Below, piece after piece: positions 18,424-63,734 of a stretch of DNA of 64,000 nt; position 1 is the stretch's first letter, and every line of letters starts with the position of its first letter. The translations under genes and the position numbers were made by a program. The notes below the pieces were generated by a model. That model saw nothing but the letters and a program-made list of their open reading frames with translations, was not told where the DNA came from and ran no database searches. The DNA lies in the NCBI GenBank assembly GCA_030765065.1, contig CM060978.1, forward strand, positions 216,399,498-216,463,497, in the 5' to 3' direction. This stretch comes from Deroplatys truncata. Taxonomy: Eukaryota > Arthropoda > Insecta > Mantodea > Mantidae.

Positions 18424-19091
18424 TACTTTGCTTTAACCAACCTATTTATGCTCTGATAATTGTTATTTCTCACTAAGAACACACTAGGCACTAAGCTAGT
18501 TAACCACCCTATTTATGTTCTGATAATTGTTCTTTCACCCTATGAACACACTAGGTACTAAGCTAGTTAACCACCCTATTTATGTTCTGATAATTGTGCT
18601 TTCACCCTATGAACACACTAGGCACTAAGCTAGTTAACCACCCTATTTATGTTCCGATAATTCTTCTTTCACCCTATGAACACACTAGGCACTAAGCTAG
18701 TTAACCACCCTATTTATGTTCTGATAATTGTGTTTTCACCCTATGAACACACTAGGCACTAAGCTAGTTAACCACCCTATTTATGTTCTGATAATTGTTC
18801 TTTCACCCTATGAACACACTAGGCACTAAGCTAGTTAACCACCATATTTATGTTCTGATAATTGTGCTTTCACCCTATGAACACACTAGGCACTAAGCTA
18901 GTTAACCACCCTATTTATGTTCTGATAATTGTGCTTTCACCCTATGAACACACTAGGCACTAAGCTAGTTAACCACCCTATTTGTGTTCTGATAATTGTT
19001 CTTTCACGCTAAGAACACACTAGGCACTAAGCTAGTTAACCACCCTATTTATGTTCTGATAATTGTTCTTTCACGCTAAGAACACACTAGG
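18424..19091 (+). repeat. 67-bp tandem satellite, about ten units
   Basis: The landmark AGCTAGTTAACC recurs at 18494, 18561, 18628, 18695, 18762, 18829, 18896, 18963 and 19030, so the period is exactly 67 bp with no indel across these units. Central units read TTTCACCCTATGAACACACT. The first unit (TCTCACTAAGAAC) and the last two (TTCACGCTAAGAAC) differ at the same position, so edge units resemble each other. There are no unique spacers, so it is not a CRISPR array. Confidence 0.97.
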
Positions 19092-24434: not shown

Positions 24435-24895
24435 ATTAGCCACCCGCATTTTAAACATTTGGTGGTTTCAGCATCTGTATCCCATACATACAACGGCATG
24501 TGTAATGAAATTATTTCTGCAAATGTTTTTCTTAATTAAGACGAAGAGACAGAAAAATAAGCTTTTGTAAGATTAGTGTGCAGAAGCTATACATAGATAA
24601 ATGATAGCGTGTAGAAAACGTGATGTGAAGTTCCGGCGATAAAATCAATGTTTTCATACATCGTTTTACAAATTGTACTGAGAATAAAATATTCTTTCTT
24701 CATGTAGTATGAAAAGGCAAAGGATACGATAAGATAATGATGGTATTTAATGCTAATGCGAAATTCCTCATAATTCTATTTGTCAATTTGTGGACAGTGA
24801 GCTACCCGACAAAACCGCGCACTCTTGATAAACAATAGCCTTAAATTACACTCTTTATGGCTGCAAATGAGTCATTCCATGTCAAGTCGAACACT
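24435..24895. other. non-coding, nothing recognised
   Basis: AT-rich sequence between two CA-core copies. No terminal repeat or coding motif seen. Confidence 0.4.
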
Positions 24896-24899
24896 TTTT

Positions 24900-26046
24900 A
24901 CTTTCTCTACTACGTATAGTAAGTAGGGGAAGTATTGCATTCCACCCAAAAATTCGATACCGAGATTTCACCGGAAATACATGTTTTGAGACCTCCTGAA
25001 TCCAAAAAAAGCATTTTTGGAAACATGTCCGTGTGTATGTCTGTGTGTGTGTGTGTCTGTGTGTGTGTGTGTCTGTGAACAGCATAACTCAAAAACTAAC
25101 AGTCGGATAAACACCAAACTTGGTATTTACGTTCAGTATCTTCCCGAGATGCGACACGAGGATTTTCAAGAAAATCTAGCCACCCCAGACTACCCTTTAC
25201 ATGGAACATTTTTCGAAAATTTTAGTTTTCTCAAAAATGGCTCTAACGATTTTGATGAAAAATTATATGTTTAAGATAATGTCATGAGAAATGAAATGTA
25301 TATCTCGAAATTTCTGGGAATGTCTCCAAAAGCATTCTTCATTATGAACGACTTTTGCATAACTGGTAAACCATAAGAGATAGACAAAATTTTACTACAC
25401 AAAAAATGTAGATCGCGTTAAAATACACAACTTATATCATATACATTTTTTTTGTTGAGTGAACCGTTTTCGAGATATTGCTTGTTATTTCCTTAAATTT
25501 TCCAATACTTATACTTCTTCTCAAATTCGTTATTCATTTTTTTATGTCCTGGACATGCAAAGAGAATGGAATGCGCCACATAGCAACCAGCGTTAAAATA
25601 TTTGACTATCGCTTAAAACTTACCATATTCCCCTTGCATCTACAAGAAAATTATCAATAAGATTGACATCTCGATATCTCGATTAACATGAAGCATATGG
25701 AGATTAAGCGTTTGTAAAAATAGTTTGTACAAGAGTAGAGAAAGTCATGTGAGTGTAACACATCAGATTTTTTTGTCTTGGATATGCAAAGAGTTATAAT
25801 CTGTGGCAAAGGGAATGGTGCTGCACCTAGCAACCAGCTATTAAGAGATATGTATGTGCTTAAAGGCTACTGTTTTTCTATATTGCCCTTGTAAATATAT
25901 TTTCCCCTACATCTACAAGAAAATTAGCAATAAGATAGAGTTTGCAAATGTTTATCTCGATTAACATGAACTAAATGGAGAATAAGTGTTTGTAAAAATA
26001 CTTTGTACCAGAGTAGAGAAAGTCATGTGAGTGTATCACATCAGAT
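24900..26046 (+). repeat. CA-core family, full copy with two 3' modules
   Basis: It starts with the 34-bp terminal hairpin (arm ACTTTCTCTACT at 24900). Then come ATTCCACCCAAAAATTCGAT, the TG-run core at about 25027-25075, GAACAGCATAACTCAAAAAC, AAATGTAGATCGCGTTAAAA and the 3' module. That module appears twice: a GTCCTGGACATGC type ending in ACACATCAGA near 25768, then a GTCTTGGATATGC type ending at 26044. A T-run precedes the first base and follows each 3' end. Confidence 0.88.
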
Positions 26047-26053
26047 CTTTTTT

Positions 26054-27773
26054 ACTTTCCCTACTACGTATAGTAAGTAGGGGAAGTATTGTATTCCACT
26101 CAAAAATTCGATACCGAGATTTCACCGGAAATACATGTTTTGAGACCCCCTGAACCAAAAAAAGCATTTTTGGGAACATGTCCATGTGTGTCTGTGTCTG
26201 TGTGGCTGTGAACAGCATAACTCAGAAACGAACAGTCGGATAAACACCAAACTTGGTATTTAGGTTCAGTATCTTCCAGAGATGCGACACAAAGATTTTC
26301 AAGAAAATCCCCCCACCTAAGATTACATTTTACATGGAACATTTTTCGAAAATTTTAATTTTCTCGAAAATGGCTCTAACGATTTTGATTAAAATATCAT
26401 ATGTTTAAGATATTGTTATGACAAATAAAATGTATATCTCGAATTTTCTGGGAATCTCTCCAAAAGAGTTCTTCATTCTGAACGACTTTTGCATAACTGG
26501 TAAACCATAAGAGATAGACAAACTTTTACTGCACAAAAAATGTAGATCGGGTTAAAATACACAATTTATGTCATATACATTTTTTGTCGAGTGAACCATT
26601 TTCGAGATATTGCTTGTTATTCCCTTAAATTTTCCAATACGTATACGTTTTCTCAAATTCGTTATTCATTTTTTACTTTCTCTACTACGTATAGTAAGTA
26701 GGGGAAGTATTGCATTCCACCCAAAAATTCGATACCGAGATTTCACCGGAAATACATGTTTTGAGACCTCCTGAATCCAAAAAAAGCATTTTTGGAAACA
26801 TGTCCGTGTGTGTGTCTGTCTGTGTGTCTGTGTGTCTGTGTGTCTGTGTGTCTGTGAACAGCATAACTCAAAAACGAACAGTCGGATAAGCACCAAACTT
26901 GGTATTTAGGTTCAGTATCTTCCAGAGATGCGACACGAAGGTTTTCAAGAAAATCCCCCCACCCCAGACTACCCTTTACATGGAAGATTTTTCGAAAATT
27001 TTAATTTTCTCAAAAATGGCTCTAACGATTTTGATGAAAATATCATATGTTTAAGACAATGGCATGAGAAATGAAATGTATATCTCGAATTTTCTGGGAA
27101 TGTCTCCAAACGTATTCTTCATTGTGAACGACTTTTGCATAACTGGTAAACCATAAGAGATAGAAAAAATTTTACTACACAAAAAATGTAGATCGCGTTA
27201 AAATACATAACTTATGTCATATACATTTCTTTTGTTGAGTGAACCGTTTTCGAGATATTGCTTGTTATTTCCTTAAATTTTCCAATACTTATACTTTTTC
27301 TCAAAATCGTTATTCATTTTTTATGTCCTGGACATGCAAAGAGAATGGAATGCGCCACATAGCAACCAGCGTTAGAATATTTGACTATCGCTTAAAAGCT
27401 ACCATATTTCCCTTGCATCTACAAGAAAATTACCAATAAGATTGACATCTCGATATCTCGATTAACATGAAGCATATGGAGAATAGGCGGTTGTAAAAAT
27501 AGTGTGTACAAGAGTAGAGAAAGTCATGTGAGTGTAACACATCAGATTTTTTTCATGGTAATGCAAGGAGAATGGAATACTCCACATAGCAACCACCTCT
27601 TAAAATATTTGACTATTGCTTAAAGCCTACCAATTCCCCTTGCATCTACAAGAAAATTAGCAATAAGATTAACATCTCGATATCTCGATTAACGTGAAGC
27701 ATATGGAGAATAAGCGTTTGTAAAAATAGTTTGTACAAGAGTAGAGAAAGTCATGTGAGTGTAACGCATCAGA
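26054..27773 (+). repeat. CA-core family copy interrupted by a nested copy
   Basis: The outer copy starts at 26054 (ACTTTCCCTACT) and runs to the T-run after GTTATTCA at about 26674. It resumes at 27554 with GGTAATGCAAGGAGAATGG and ends ACGCATCAGA at 27773. The two halves together make one normal unit. This shows the order of events and that a T-run inside an older copy served as target. Confidence 0.85.
26675..27546 (+). repeat. CA-core family copy nested inside 26054-27773
   Basis: Begins at the terminal hairpin arm ACTTTCTCTACT at 26675 and ends ACACATCAGA at 27546, followed by seven T. The TG/TCTG core spans about 26806-26856. This is the clearest evidence for the two borders of the mobile unit. 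Confidence 0.85.
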
Positions 27774-27779
27774 ATTTTG

Positions 27780-44880: not shown

Positions 44881-44904
44881 AAGAATATAAGGCTGATTTT
44901 TACA

Positions 44905-45690
44905 TTCCACCAAAAAATTCGATACAGAGATTTCACCGGAAATATGTAATAAAAAAATTTTTTTGGAAACATGTCCGTGTGTGTCTGTGTGTGTACACAG
45001 CATAACTCAGAAACGAACAGTCGGATAAACACCAAATTTGGTATTTAGGTTCAGTATCTTCCAAAGATGCGACACGAAGGTTTACAAGAAAATCCGCCCC
45101 ACCCCAGATTGCCCTTTACATGGAACATTTTTCGAAAATTTTAATTTTCTCAAAAATGGGTCTAACGATTTTGATTAAAATATCATATATTTAAGATACT
45201 TTCATGACAAATAAAATGTATATCTTGAATTTTCTGGGAATGTCTCCAAAAGTATTCTCGATTGTGAACGACTTTTGCATAACTGGTAAACCATAAGAAA
45301 TAGATAAAATTTTACTACACAAAAAATGTAGATCGCGTTAAAATGCAAAATCTATGTCATATACATTTTTTGTTGAGTGAACCATTTTCGAGATATTGCT
45401 TGTTATTGCCTTAAATTTTCCAATACTTATACTTTTTCTCAAATGGGAATTCGTTATTCATTTTTTTTGTCCTGGTAATGCAAAGAAAATGGAATACTCC
45501 ACATAGCAACCAGCTCTTAAAATATTTGACTCGCTTAAAGCCTACCAATTCCCCTTGCATCTACAAGAAAATTAGCAATAAGATTAACATCTCGATATCT
45601 CGATTAACATGAAGCATATGGAGAATAATTGTTTGTAAAAATAGTTTGTACAAGAGTAGAGAAAGTCATGTAAATGTAACACATCAGATA
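44905..45690 (+). repeat. CA-core family copy without terminal hairpin
   Basis: Starts GATTTTTACATTCCACCAAA just after the SINE's target duplication. It has a very short TG core (GTGTGTGTCTGTGTGTG), a normal middle and a 3' module ending ACACATCAGA. The empty-site reference CATTTTTTGTTGAGTG used to interpret 63148-63181 is at about 45363. Confidence 0.85.
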
Positions 45691-45699
45691 TTTTGTTTT

Positions 45700-57296: not shown

Positions 57297-57601
57297 AATG
57301 CCATAGCCGGAATTGGAATGGATCTTCCGGTTTCCGTCCGGTTGCTTTAACCAACTGAGCTACATCGGCAACATACCGACACGACATTAAATTCCCCAAT
57401 TGACTCGCATTTATTCCGGTAAACTACAAAGAAATCTAAAATTAATTTTGAGATGAAATAACCAATGACGACTTACAGTGTCGTAAGTGCTGTAAGTACC
57501 GGGCTTCATAGTTTAACTAACTATTAGGTCCAGCAAATGTTGATTAGAGCAACCGGACGGGAAACCATAAGATCCGTGGTTCAAATCCCGGCTATGGCAT
57601 T
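57297..57601. mobile_element. inverted pair of tRNA-like SINE heads (foldback)
   Basis: The left arm, on the minus strand, reads GATGTAGCTCAGTTGGTTAA (A-box) then GCAACCGGACGGAAACC and ends CCGGCTATGGCATT. The right arm, on the plus strand, reads GCAACCGGACGGGAAACC, then GTGGTTCAAATCCC (B-box), and ends CCGGCTATGGCATT at 57588-57601. The outer 14 bp are perfectly inverted. The left arm keeps the A-box and the right arm keeps the B-box. About 170 bp separate the heads. Neither folds into a plausible functional tRNA. Confidence 0.75.
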
Positions 57602-57610
57602 GACCTTTTT

Positions 57611-60762: not shown

Positions 60763-60935
60763 AATAGCTTGTACAAGAGTAGAGAAAGCCATGTGAGTGT
60801 AACACATCAAATTTTTACTTTCTCTACTACGTATAGTAAGTAGGGGAAGTAGCTACTGTATTCTACCCAAAAATTCTATACCAATATTTCACCGGAAATA
60901 TATGTTTTGAGACCCCTTGAATCCAAAAAAAAAAA
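60763..60935 (+). repeat. two CA-core end fragments in direct succession
   Basis: First a 3' terminus fragment (TTGTACAAGAGTAGAGAAAG to ACACATCAAA), then at 60818 a new 5' start ACTTTCTCTACT that runs about 110 bp to GACCCCTTGAATCC and stops at an A-run. Confidence 0.85.
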
Positions 60936-61646
60936 TCTGATGTGTTACACTCACATGACTTTCTCTACTCTTGTACAATCTAATTTTACAAACGCCTATT
61001 CTCCATATGCTTCAAGTTAATCGAGATATTGAGATGTCAATCTTATTGGTAATTTTCTTATAGATGCAAGGGAAATATCGTAGCTTTTAAGCGATAGTCA
61101 AATATTTTAACGCTGGTTGCTATGTGGCGCATTCCATTCTCTTTGCATGTCCAGGACATAAAAAAATGAATAACGAATTTGAGAAAAAGTATAAGTATTG
61201 GAAAATTTAAGGAAATAACAAGCAATATCTCGCAAACGGTTCACTCAACAAAAGAAATGTATATGACATAAATTGTGTATTTTAACGCGATCTACATTTT
61301 TTGTGTAGTAAAATTTTGTCTATCTCTTATGGTTTACCAGTTATGCAAAAGTCGTTCACAATGAAGAATACTTTTGGAGACATTCCCAGAAAATTCGAGA
61401 TATACATTTCATTTCTCATGACATTATCTTAAACATATGATATTTTCATCAAAATCGTTAGAGCCATTTTTGAGAAAATTAAAATTTTCGAAAAATGTTC
61501 CATGTAAAGGGTAGTCTGGGGTAAGGGTATTTTCTTGAAAACCTTCGTGTCGCATCTCTGGAAGATACTGAACCTAAATACCAAGTTTAGTGTTTATCCG
61601 ACTGTTCGTTTTTGAGTTATGTTGTTCACAGACACACAGACACACA

Positions 61647-61695
<49 letters not shown>

Positions 61696-61832
61696 ACACA
61701 CGGACATGTTTCCAAAAATGCTTTTTTTGGATTCAGGCGGTCTCAAAACATGTATTTCCGGTGAAATCTCGGTATCGAATTTTTGGGTGGAATGCAATAC
61801 TTCCCCTACTTACTATACGTAGTAGAGAAAGT
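60936..61832 (-). repeat. CA-core family, first unit of a tandem pair
   Basis: TCTGATGTGTTACACTCACA start, ACTATACGTAGTAGAGAAAG end. It carries the longest CA core of the window (about 61645-61690 without interruption). The next unit starts five A after its end. Confidence 0.9.
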
Positions 61833-61837
61833 AAAAA

Positions 61838-62728
61838 TCTGATGTGTTACACTCACATGACTTTCTCTACTCTTGTACAATCTATTTTTACAAAGGCCTA
61901 TTCTCCATATGCTTCATATTAATCGAGATATCGAGATGTCAATCTTATTTGTAATTTTCTTGTAGATGCAAGGGGAATATGGTAGCTTTTAAGCGATAGT
62001 CAAATATTTTATCGCTGGTTGCTATGTGGCGCATTCCATTCTCTTTGCATGTCCAGGACATAAAAAAATGAATAACGAATTTGAGAAAAAGTATAAGTAT
62101 TGGAAAATTTAAGGGAATAACAAGCAATATCTCGAAAACGGTTCACTCAACAAAAGAAATGTATATGACATAAGTTGTGTATTTTAATGCGATCTACATT
62201 TTTTGTGTAGTAAAATTTTGTCTATCTCTTATGGTTTACCAGTTATGCAAAAGTCGTTCACAATGAAGAATACTTTTGGAGACATTCCCAGAAAATTCGA
62301 GATATACGTTTCATTACTCATAACATTATCTTAAACATATGATATTTTAATCAAAATCGTTAGAGCCATTTTTGAGAAAATTAAAATTTTCGAAAAATGT
62401 TCCATGTAAAGGGTAGTCTGGGGTGAGAGGATTTTCTTGAATACCTTCGTGTCGCATCTCTGGAAGATACTGAACCTAAATACCAAGTTTGGTGTTTATC
62501 CGACTGTTCGTTTTTGAGTTATGCTGTTCACAGACACACACACACACACACAGACACACACACACACACAGACACACACACACACAGACACACACACGGA
62601 CATGTTTCCAAAAATGCTTTTTTTGGATTCAGGAGGTCTCAAAACATGTATTTCCGGTGAAATCTCGGTATCGAATTTTTGGGTGGAATGCAATACTTCC
62701 CCTACTTACTATACGTAGTAGAGAAAGT
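61838..62728 (-). repeat. CA-core family, second unit of a tandem pair
   Basis: Same borders as the first unit, 902 bp downstream. The two are very similar outside the core, which here is CA interrupted by GACA (about 62530-62597). Confidence 0.9.
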
Positions 62729-62730
62729 AA

Positions 62731-63725
62731 AAAAGGATTTTTGGAAACATGTCCGTGTGTGCGTCTGTCTGTGAACAGCATAACTCAGAAACGAACAGTC
62801 GGATAAACACCAAACTTGGTATTTAGGTTCAGTGTCTTCCAGAGATGCGACATGAAGGTTTTCAAGAAAATACACCCATCTCAGATTACCGTTTACATGG
62901 AACATTTTTCGAAAAGTTTAATTTTCTCAAAAATGGCTGTAACGATTTTGATTAAAATATCATATGTGTAAGAGATTTCATGACAAATTAAATGTATATG
63001 TTGAATTTTCTGGGAATGTCTCCAAAAGTATTCTTCATTGTGAACAACTTTTGCATAACTGGTAAACCATAAAAGATAGACAAAATTTTACTACACAAAA
63101 AATGTAGTTCGCCTTAAAATTTAAAAATTTATGTCATATACATTTTTACTTTCTCTACTACGTATAGTAAGTAGGGGAAGTATTTTTTGTTGGGTGAACC
63201 ATTTTCGAGATATTACTGGTTATTCACTTAAATTTTCCAATAGTTATAGTTTTTCTCAAATTCGTTATTCATTTTTTTGTCCTGGTAATGGAAAGAGAAT
63301 GGAATACTCCACATAGCATCCACCTCTGAAAATATTTCACTATCGCTTAAAGCCTACAATTCCCCTTGGATCTACAAGATAATTAGCAATAAGATTAACA
63401 TCTCGATATCTCGATTAACATGAAGCATATGGAGAATAAGCGTTTGTAAATAATAGTTTGTACAAGAGTAGAGAAAGTCATGTAAGTGTAACACATCAGA
63501 TTTTTTTTATGTCCTGGACATGCAAAGAGAATGGAGTGTGCCACATAGCAACCAGCTCTTAAAATATTTGACTATCGCTTAAAGCCTACCAATTCCCCTT
63601 GCACCTACAAGAAAATTAGCAATAAGGTTACATCTCGATTAACATGAAGCATATGGGGAATAAGCGTTTGTAAAAATAGTTTGTACAGGAGTAGAGAAAG
63701 TCATGTGAATGTAACATCAAATTTT
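62731..63725 (+). repeat. CA-core family copy, forward, 5' part missing, two 3' modules
   Basis: Begins inside the family at AGGATTTTTGGAAACATGTC, so the hairpin end is absent. Its middle is interrupted by the 34-bp hairpin at 63148-63181. The first 3' end is near 63500 and the second near 63722. Confidence 0.85.
63148..63181. mobile_element. solo 34-bp hairpin insertion with 6-bp target duplication
   Basis: Only the terminal hairpin of the CA-core family is present: ACTTTCTCTACT (63148-63159), a 10-bp loop, AGTAGGGGAAGT (63170-63181). It is flanked on both sides by ATTTTT (63142-63147 and 63182-63187). Removing the 34 bp and one ATTTTT gives CATTTTTTGTTG, as found uninterrupted at about 45363. 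Confidence 0.9.
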
Positions 63726-63734
63726 TTTAAGCGA

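Follow-up and report, generated by a model that had tools for sequence, protein, structure and literature searches.

Hairpin-only units from the 5' end of a HINE-like family in the Deroplatys truncata genome: possible short rolling-circle products

A solitary hairpin within a copy of its own family

Can the terminal hairpin of a repeat family be inserted on its own? The question is raised by a 34-nt hairpin at 63148–63181 (forward strand) of the window, the 64-kb stretch of DNA analysed here (contig C4, 216,399,498–216,463,497, of the 4.29-Gb Deroplatys truncata assembly). The hairpin comprises a 5' subterminal repeat (subTIR; ACTTTCTCTACT), a 10-nt loop and an inverted repeat (AGTAGGGGAAGT), is identical to the 5' end of its family consensus, and interrupts a further copy of that family, its host, at consensus ~557, sharing the host's orientation. 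The left flank, CATTTTT, ends in a T5 run read from the sequence at 63143–63147 (+), on the target side; the right flank, ATTTTTTGTTG, opens with ATT (63182–63184, +; consensus positions 40–42), the last three bases of a proposed 37-nt unit. Consensus positions 1–42 match 63143–63184 at 100%.

The first-pass annotation had described a hairpin within a same-family copy, arms pairing over 12 positions and an unoccupied counterpart near 45363. Recovery of the 34-mer and its mapping to the consensus confirm the first point, and the arms, as read from the sequence, do pair at 12 positions, two of them G-T. A sequence search of the window places the unoccupied paralogous site (CATATACATTTTTTGTTG) at about 45356–45375 (+). 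Folding of the hairpin as DNA gives −4.7 kcal/mol (z −2.05), with 4 of 200 shuffles equally good. The reported 6-bp duplication stands only in part: ATTTTT is present on both sides, but the right-hand ATT consists of the family's own bases, so the locus is no proof of a 6-bp duplication.

The host copy (consensus 111–879, by BLAST to the consensus) extends over 62729–63505 (+). The 5' part apparently belonging to it (consensus 1–116) maps to 60812–60931 (+), separated by two full minus-strand copies arranged head to tail within the host, the first at 61833–62733 and the second at 60931–61837, while an extra ~230-bp 3' module (consensus 644–879) maps to 63502–63726 (+). Head-to-tail copies are linked by five T at 61832/61833 and at 60816/60817, which fits rolling-circle copying. 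Twelve hairpin copies with ≤3 mismatches occur in the window, compared with none in 100 shuffles, and a thirteenth has 4 mismatches; among these 13, the hairpin at 63148–63181 is the only solitary one. We also considered a 480-bp inverted-repeat MITE spanning 62695–63181 and rejected it, its two inverted hairpins belonging to different insertions.

The family that owns the hairpin

The hairpin, with its subterminal repeat, loop and inverted repeat, forms the 5' terminus of a family of ~870 bp that is built like HINE/DINE-1 elements, which are non-autonomous Helentrons, and full copies do begin with it, as first proposed. Consensus and mapping give the order from the 5' end as the ACTTTCTCTACT subTIR, 10 nt, the AGTAGGGGAAGT inverted repeat, a GT/CA microsatellite and the body; the 3' part comprises a ~230-bp module, often repeated, the 3' subTIR AGTAGAGAAAGT, a palindrome (ATGTG-7-CACAT) and the terminal CAGATTTTT. 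The two subTIRs occupy positions 6–17 and 841–852 of the 879-position consensus, the inverted repeat 10 nt past the 5' subTIR is the hairpin itself, and GT/CA tracts accompany a central 227-bp repeat. The palindrome is present in the 3' ends, its fold being weak and no better than shuffles (z −0.22). T-runs flank the elements on either side, and paralogous empty sites agree with duplication of nothing but T, the number of T being uncountable. In the accessible text of three reports, HINE/DINE-1 elements carry subTIRs, an inverted repeat beside the 5' subTIR, a microsatellite, central repeats and a 3' palindrome, and insert into T-runs with a variable number of T and no clear target site duplication (TSD) (PMC4067079, PMC7492417, PMC2374699). 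The present family resembles them in its subTIRs, inverted repeat, microsatellite, repeated module, 3' palindrome and T-rich targets with a varying number of T, and probably also in the lack of a clear TSD.

Other TIR/TSD superfamilies and SINEs were rejected for this family on account of its asymmetric ends, internal 3' subTIR and T-only flanks, set against the general features of those classes. Searches with the frame of the element returned four weak, nameless protein matches, the Rfam and tRNA searches returned none, and the hairpin and 3'-end patterns had no match in a viral contig collection or in a separate genome contig collection. Helitron-type Rep domains (PF14214) are plentiful in the genome, with 152 matches, and among the matches listed about 30 lie in uninterrupted frames of >1000 aa. 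Many of these Rep frames measure 2300–2500 aa, are free of stops and have equal scores, as in a young autonomous family.

The inner arm of the hairpin (AGTAGGGGAAGT), read in the direction of the 3' subTIR (AGTAGAGAAAGT), agrees with it at 10 of 12 positions. Within the window, the hairpin has changed less than the body has (8 of 410 vs 770 of 12,832 aligned positions differing, with the solitary hairpin, ancient copies and matches of <25 bases excluded). The first-pass annotation had suggested that the hairpin might be the true mobile unit and the remaining sequence, its 'CA-core', a hitchhiker. This is not supported: the hairpin forms the 5' terminus of a HINE, the body together with its two ends makes up an ordinary HINE, and solitary hairpins are rare.

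Further copies illustrate the range of arrangements in the window. A full reference copy, 97% identical to the consensus, maps to 24895–25772 (+), and another full copy (26670–27551, +) is nested at consensus ~648 of a third (26049–26674 and 27547–27778). The copy at 44900–45693 begins right past the hairpin, at consensus 41, its flank TTTTTA passing straight into CATTCCACC, as though this copy had lost only its hairpin. Directly before another HINE, at 57550–57605, lies a stretch resembling a tRNA B-box (GGTTCAAATCCCGGC), possibly the head of a SINE. The window further holds a satellite-like 67-bp tandem repeat (18433–19091; 9.8 copies, 95% matches), fragments of mariner/Tc1-type transposases and another repeat ORF whose named neighbours are largely from spiders and insects, both in keeping with an arthropod source.

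Genome-wide distribution of solitary hairpins

Hairpins with ≤3 mismatches number 284,682 in the 4.29-Gb genome, with none for the reversed control. A query for perfect hairpins with ATTTTT immediately downstream, a tail incompatible with the normal body (ATTG[C/T]ATTCC), identified 105 places, including that in the window. We read 100 of these (99 fetched loci and the window): 83 are solitary hairpins (hereafter solos), 16 are body-bearing or internally deleted and one is ambiguous (L082). The locus at 63148 is thus not a single case, a possibility that the first-pass annotation had left standing, although solos are rare relative to the total number of hairpins.

The 83 solos comprise 32 in other contexts, 43 nested in a HINE copy, six directly past a HINE 3' end and two double hairpins. 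The 16 remaining places comprise eight that retain the body after a small change and eight internal deletions, seven of them from the hairpin base to consensus 119 and one to ~553. Classes were assigned automatically except for twelve loci placed by hand, nine of which the automatic procedure had left as '?': L014, L021, L044, L047, L072, L079 and also L061 were placed in other contexts, L015 and L099 among the deletions, L068 and L038 among the double hairpins, and L082 as ambiguous. The 100 places are spread over contigs C1–C15, with varied flanks and hosts. Units made up of the hairpin only, 37 or 42 nt long, are found by themselves at scattered T-rich sites.

Among nested solos, the preferred sites are two T-tracts, one at consensus ~648 (24 loci) and one at ~557 (the window, L042, L045, L046 and L071). 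For the hosts of the solos at 648, the pairwise difference has a median of 8.6% and a minimum of 1.6%, so that some of these solos may be copies of one event. Among related tails, hairpin plus ATTTTG occurs at 26 places and hairpin plus ATTAAA at 19, and all ten of the latter that were read carry the body; solos were accordingly seen only beside T-runs, as the query required. At one locus (L083), the solo lies at the midpoint of an unrelated short palindromic element, with inverted repeats of about 25 bp on either side, of which many empty copies may exist.

Target sites and empty paralogs

Solos do not, as a rule, show a target duplication of 6 bp. In the automatic class of 15 solos with non-family flanks and a left T-run of at least five, the base preceding the run is A in eight, G in four and C in three, whereas the right side begins, by query, with A in all; in the seven loci with G or C, the right-hand A is therefore no duplicate. 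At L025, the family consensus, judged by eye, lacks an A at the insertion site. Solos preceded by TATT in place of the T-run have room for a duplication of 3 bp at most. The solos thus do not share a duplication of fixed length, as expected of a TIR/TSD MITE, and the TIR/TSD transposase implied by the first-pass annotation is unsupported.

Empty paralogs instead fit a clean insertion. Removal of 37 nt (hairpin plus ATT) from L079 yields gap-free alignments with L085, L118, L092 and L109 (77–85% over 47–53 bp), and the same removal from L092 yields a gap-free alignment with L082 (76%). Both L079 and L092 belong to the TATT class and contain a 37-nt insertion without a gap or an extra base. In these two loci, a 34-nt unit with a duplicated ATT gives the same letters as a 37-nt unit; more generally, a 37-nt insertion, a 34-nt insertion with duplicated ATT and some deletions leave identical letters. 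At consensus 648, even the 37-nt unit leaves an excess, the T-runs of the two sides adding up to 1–2 more than the mean of about 7 in empty copies.

Junctions, size classes and arrays

The 5' junctions relate solos to complete elements. In 86 full copies, which include some of the eight body-bearing query loci and near-duplicates such as L006/L007, the left flank is T5 in 44, T6 in 15, TATT in 12 and another sequence in 15, and solos show the same two main kinds, T5 and TATT. With classes sorted by hand, TATT is found in 12 of 32 other-context solos, compared with 12 of the 86 full copies (Fisher p=0.009) and one of 16 deletion or indel derivatives (p=0.04); the automatic classes, without L015, gave TATT in 0 of 17 derivatives. 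The 14 solos at consensus 648 that carry the ATGTCC variant all have a left run of T5, as do six of seven full insertions there. Because these kinds are shared, the solos carry the junction of genuine insertions, which can be summarised as TWTT^ACTTTC.

The 3' ends of solos fall mostly on TATT, producing a unit of 37 nt (hairpin plus ATT) or 42 nt (hairpin plus ATTGTATT). The 42-nt class was sought as T6 within 13 nt of a hairpin, with 100 of 205 matches listed and 20 loci fetched. Units of 42 nt, some with a mismatch in the hairpin, occupy the same targets as those of 37 nt, namely consensus 648 (L108, L118 and L120) and 557 (L110 and L113), and also occur in the TATT class (L115 and L117). 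About 54 of the 100 matches listed share the hairpin followed by ATTGCATTAGTTATTTTTT, and L126 and L127 have identical flanks; this seems to be an amplified host carrying one modified hairpin. With the 54 matches of this variant put aside, the run at distinct loci among the matches listed follows GTATT in 18, GTATTGTATT in 12, GCATT in two, ATTG in two and other sequences in two.

As a second site, GTATT outnumbers GCATT 12:2 among the matches listed (p=0.013, the variants being taken as equally common), although L121 looks internally deleted and L109 has an altered hairpin among the 12, and L111 looks internally deleted among the two. In the window, the two variants are roughly equal (7 and 5). 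Units of both sizes thus end at a fixed (G)TATT tag, comparable to that of bacterial REPs.

Hairpin-only units also occur in series. The exact hairpin followed by ATTGTATTTTT is found at 28 places genome-wide, and six such units begin on a 45-bp grid within G000:C6:8435650-8436099, a stretch that is likely a head-to-tail array of hairpin-only units. Direct hairpin-ATTTTT-hairpin junctions number eight at ≤2 mismatches. At L009, L011 and L088, a HINE 3' end is followed by an extra hairpin and then by non-family DNA.

Short rolling-circle products as a probable explanation

Together, the dispersal of the solos, the gap-free empty paralogs (two cases) and the 5' junctions of full copies indicate that hairpin-only units do seem to be inserted. 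The proposal that the hairpin can be moved alone is thereby supported in part, without the 6-bp TSD transposase attached to it. We consider it somewhat probable that the solos are short rolling-circle products that stopped at the 5' hairpin and were inserted like full elements. This reading draws on the 83 of 100 places in varied contexts, 32 of them outside copies of the family; on the bimodal 5' junction shared with the 86 full copies; on the empty paralogs of L079 (four loci) and L092 (L082); on the 42-nt class at the same targets, with its 12 GTATT against two GCATT ends among the matches listed; on the six exact units of the C6 grid; on the extra hairpins of L009, L011 and L088; and on the abundance of Rep domains.

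The mechanism that we propose combines the solo data with the 3'-hairpin terminator described in the accessible text on Helraiser (PMC4778049). A presumed Helentron Rep nuclease would cut after TWTT (W = A/T), the transferred strand starting at ACTTTC, and would usually stop at CAGATTTTT, past the 3' palindrome. From time to time, a 5' hairpin with TATT behind it may serve as the stop signal instead, causing premature termination, and the released unit of 37–42 nt would enter another TWTT^TTT place as a full element does. As the inner arm resembles the 3' subTIR, the hairpin holds both recognition elements at minimal distance, and with TATT behind it, it could act as a premature stop. The pattern at L009, L011 and L088 would be expected if copying overran by one unit and halted at the 5' hairpin that follows. 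Against short rolling-circle products stand the T-run beside every solo seen, with the body present at all ten hairpin-ATTAAA places read (of 19), as well as the T-run excess of 1–2 at 648, where some solos may be copies.

A further proposal is offered only tentatively, and we think it more doubtful than the production of short units as such: the TATT-tagged hairpin may be a self-sufficient mobile unit of an animal nuclear genome, excised, circularised and reinserted by the Helentron Rep without a full-length copy. Insertion at TATT leaves a nuclease site on both sides, so that Rep could excise, circularise and reinsert the unit alone. If so, the units on the C6 grid would be its rolling-circle concatemer.

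Alternative explanations

The strongest rival, which we nevertheless regard as unlikely, holds that a full HINE was inserted and that a precise deletion, joining the hairpin-base ATT to the ATT within the terminal CAGATTTTT, later removed its interior, so that the hairpin and a T-run were left. The resulting letters are identical, solos and full copies have the 5' junction in common, and every solo seen has T on its right. Deletions through ATT homology are indeed observed: seven of 100 places lack the stretch between the hairpin base and the following ATTTTT (consensus 119), and in one more the deletion extends to ~553. These classes shrink with distance (seven at 76 bp, one at ~510 bp), yet the deletion required here, of 837 bp, would have to form the most numerous class. 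No case makes use of the longest local homology (AAGTATT, 7 bp), and across the whole genome just one hairpin has a remaining 3' end (ACATCAGATTTTT) within 30 nt. Right-hand T-runs are also shorter in solos, with a mean of 5.8 (n=25 other-context solos) compared with 6.8 at full 3' ends (n=96; p=0.0003), both counted from five T upward; at the host site of L079, full copies have T7–T8 and the solo T5.

Template switching, in which a repair polymerase switches to the T-run that precedes the hairpin of another copy, copies this hairpin and returns through ATT homology, appears less probable still. Microhomology is available from T5 on entry and from ATT on return, and the window contains a hairpin in inverse orientation (62695–62728) about 420 bp away; however, neither the TATT class common to solos and full copies nor the preference for GTATT over GCATT ends is predicted.

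A classical cut-and-paste MITE of 34 bp with a 6-bp A/T target duplication would account for the literal ATTTTT on both sides at 63148 and several other loci, but we judge it highly improbable given the seven of 15 solos with G or C before the left run and A on the right, and the 3-bp limit in the TATT class. An assembly artefact is the least credible alternative: one assembly is the sole source, but the 100 places are distributed over 15 contigs with varied flanks and hosts.

Relation to known systems and significance

Short mobile palindromes as such are already known from bacterial REPs and yeast mitochondrial GC clusters, as the accessible parts of PMC3733652 and PMC4478555 indicate. The former source describes REPs as hairpins of 20–40 bp with a GTAG tag, linked to RAYT enzymes. 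The resemblance lies in the short hairpin and the tetranucleotide tag at one end, together with the link of REPs to an HUH-type tyrosine transposase; REPs, however, are bacterial and have GTAG and a single-domain enzyme of their own, whereas the present units have TATT, a presumed Helentron Rep and an animal nucleus as their setting (PMC3733652). GC clusters are likewise mobile palindromic sequences of ~40 nt with very short flanking repeats, but they are mitochondrial, move by an unknown mechanism and, unlike the hairpin-only units, are not the end of a longer element, according to the portion of PMC4478555 available.

Helitrons of the Helraiser type share with the proposed process a hairpin terminator, altered ends upon bypass and circular intermediates, their 3' hairpin terminating transposition and other ends arising when it is bypassed, as set out in the available text of PMC4778049. 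There, bypass of the 3' hairpin makes products grow, whereas here the 5' hairpin would stop transposition early and products would shrink; the TC/CTRR ends of that system are absent from the present family. Relative to HINE/DINE-1 elements, the difference is the presence of 37–42-nt hairpin-only units, which the accessible portions of PMC4067079, PMC2374699 and PMC7492417 do not mention. Our literature search, which left most subscription journals outside its coverage, found no title or abstract naming such units, and as far as it reaches, the new element here is a hairpin-only derivative of a HINE.

In the parts of the DINE-1/HINE literature available, target site and termini are left ambiguous by T-runs. 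Hairpin-only units would fix both Helentron cut points to TWTT at single-base resolution, and would offer a minimal in vitro substrate of ~40 nt for the Helentron Rep. They would also suggest that a terminator role is possible for the HINE 5' inverted repeat, and would show how very short palindromes could be seeded and arrayed in animal genomes. Should the self-sufficient unit proposed above prove true, bacterial REPs would have an equivalent among eukaryotes and, within the reach of the literature search, this unit would be the smallest nuclear transposing unit described.
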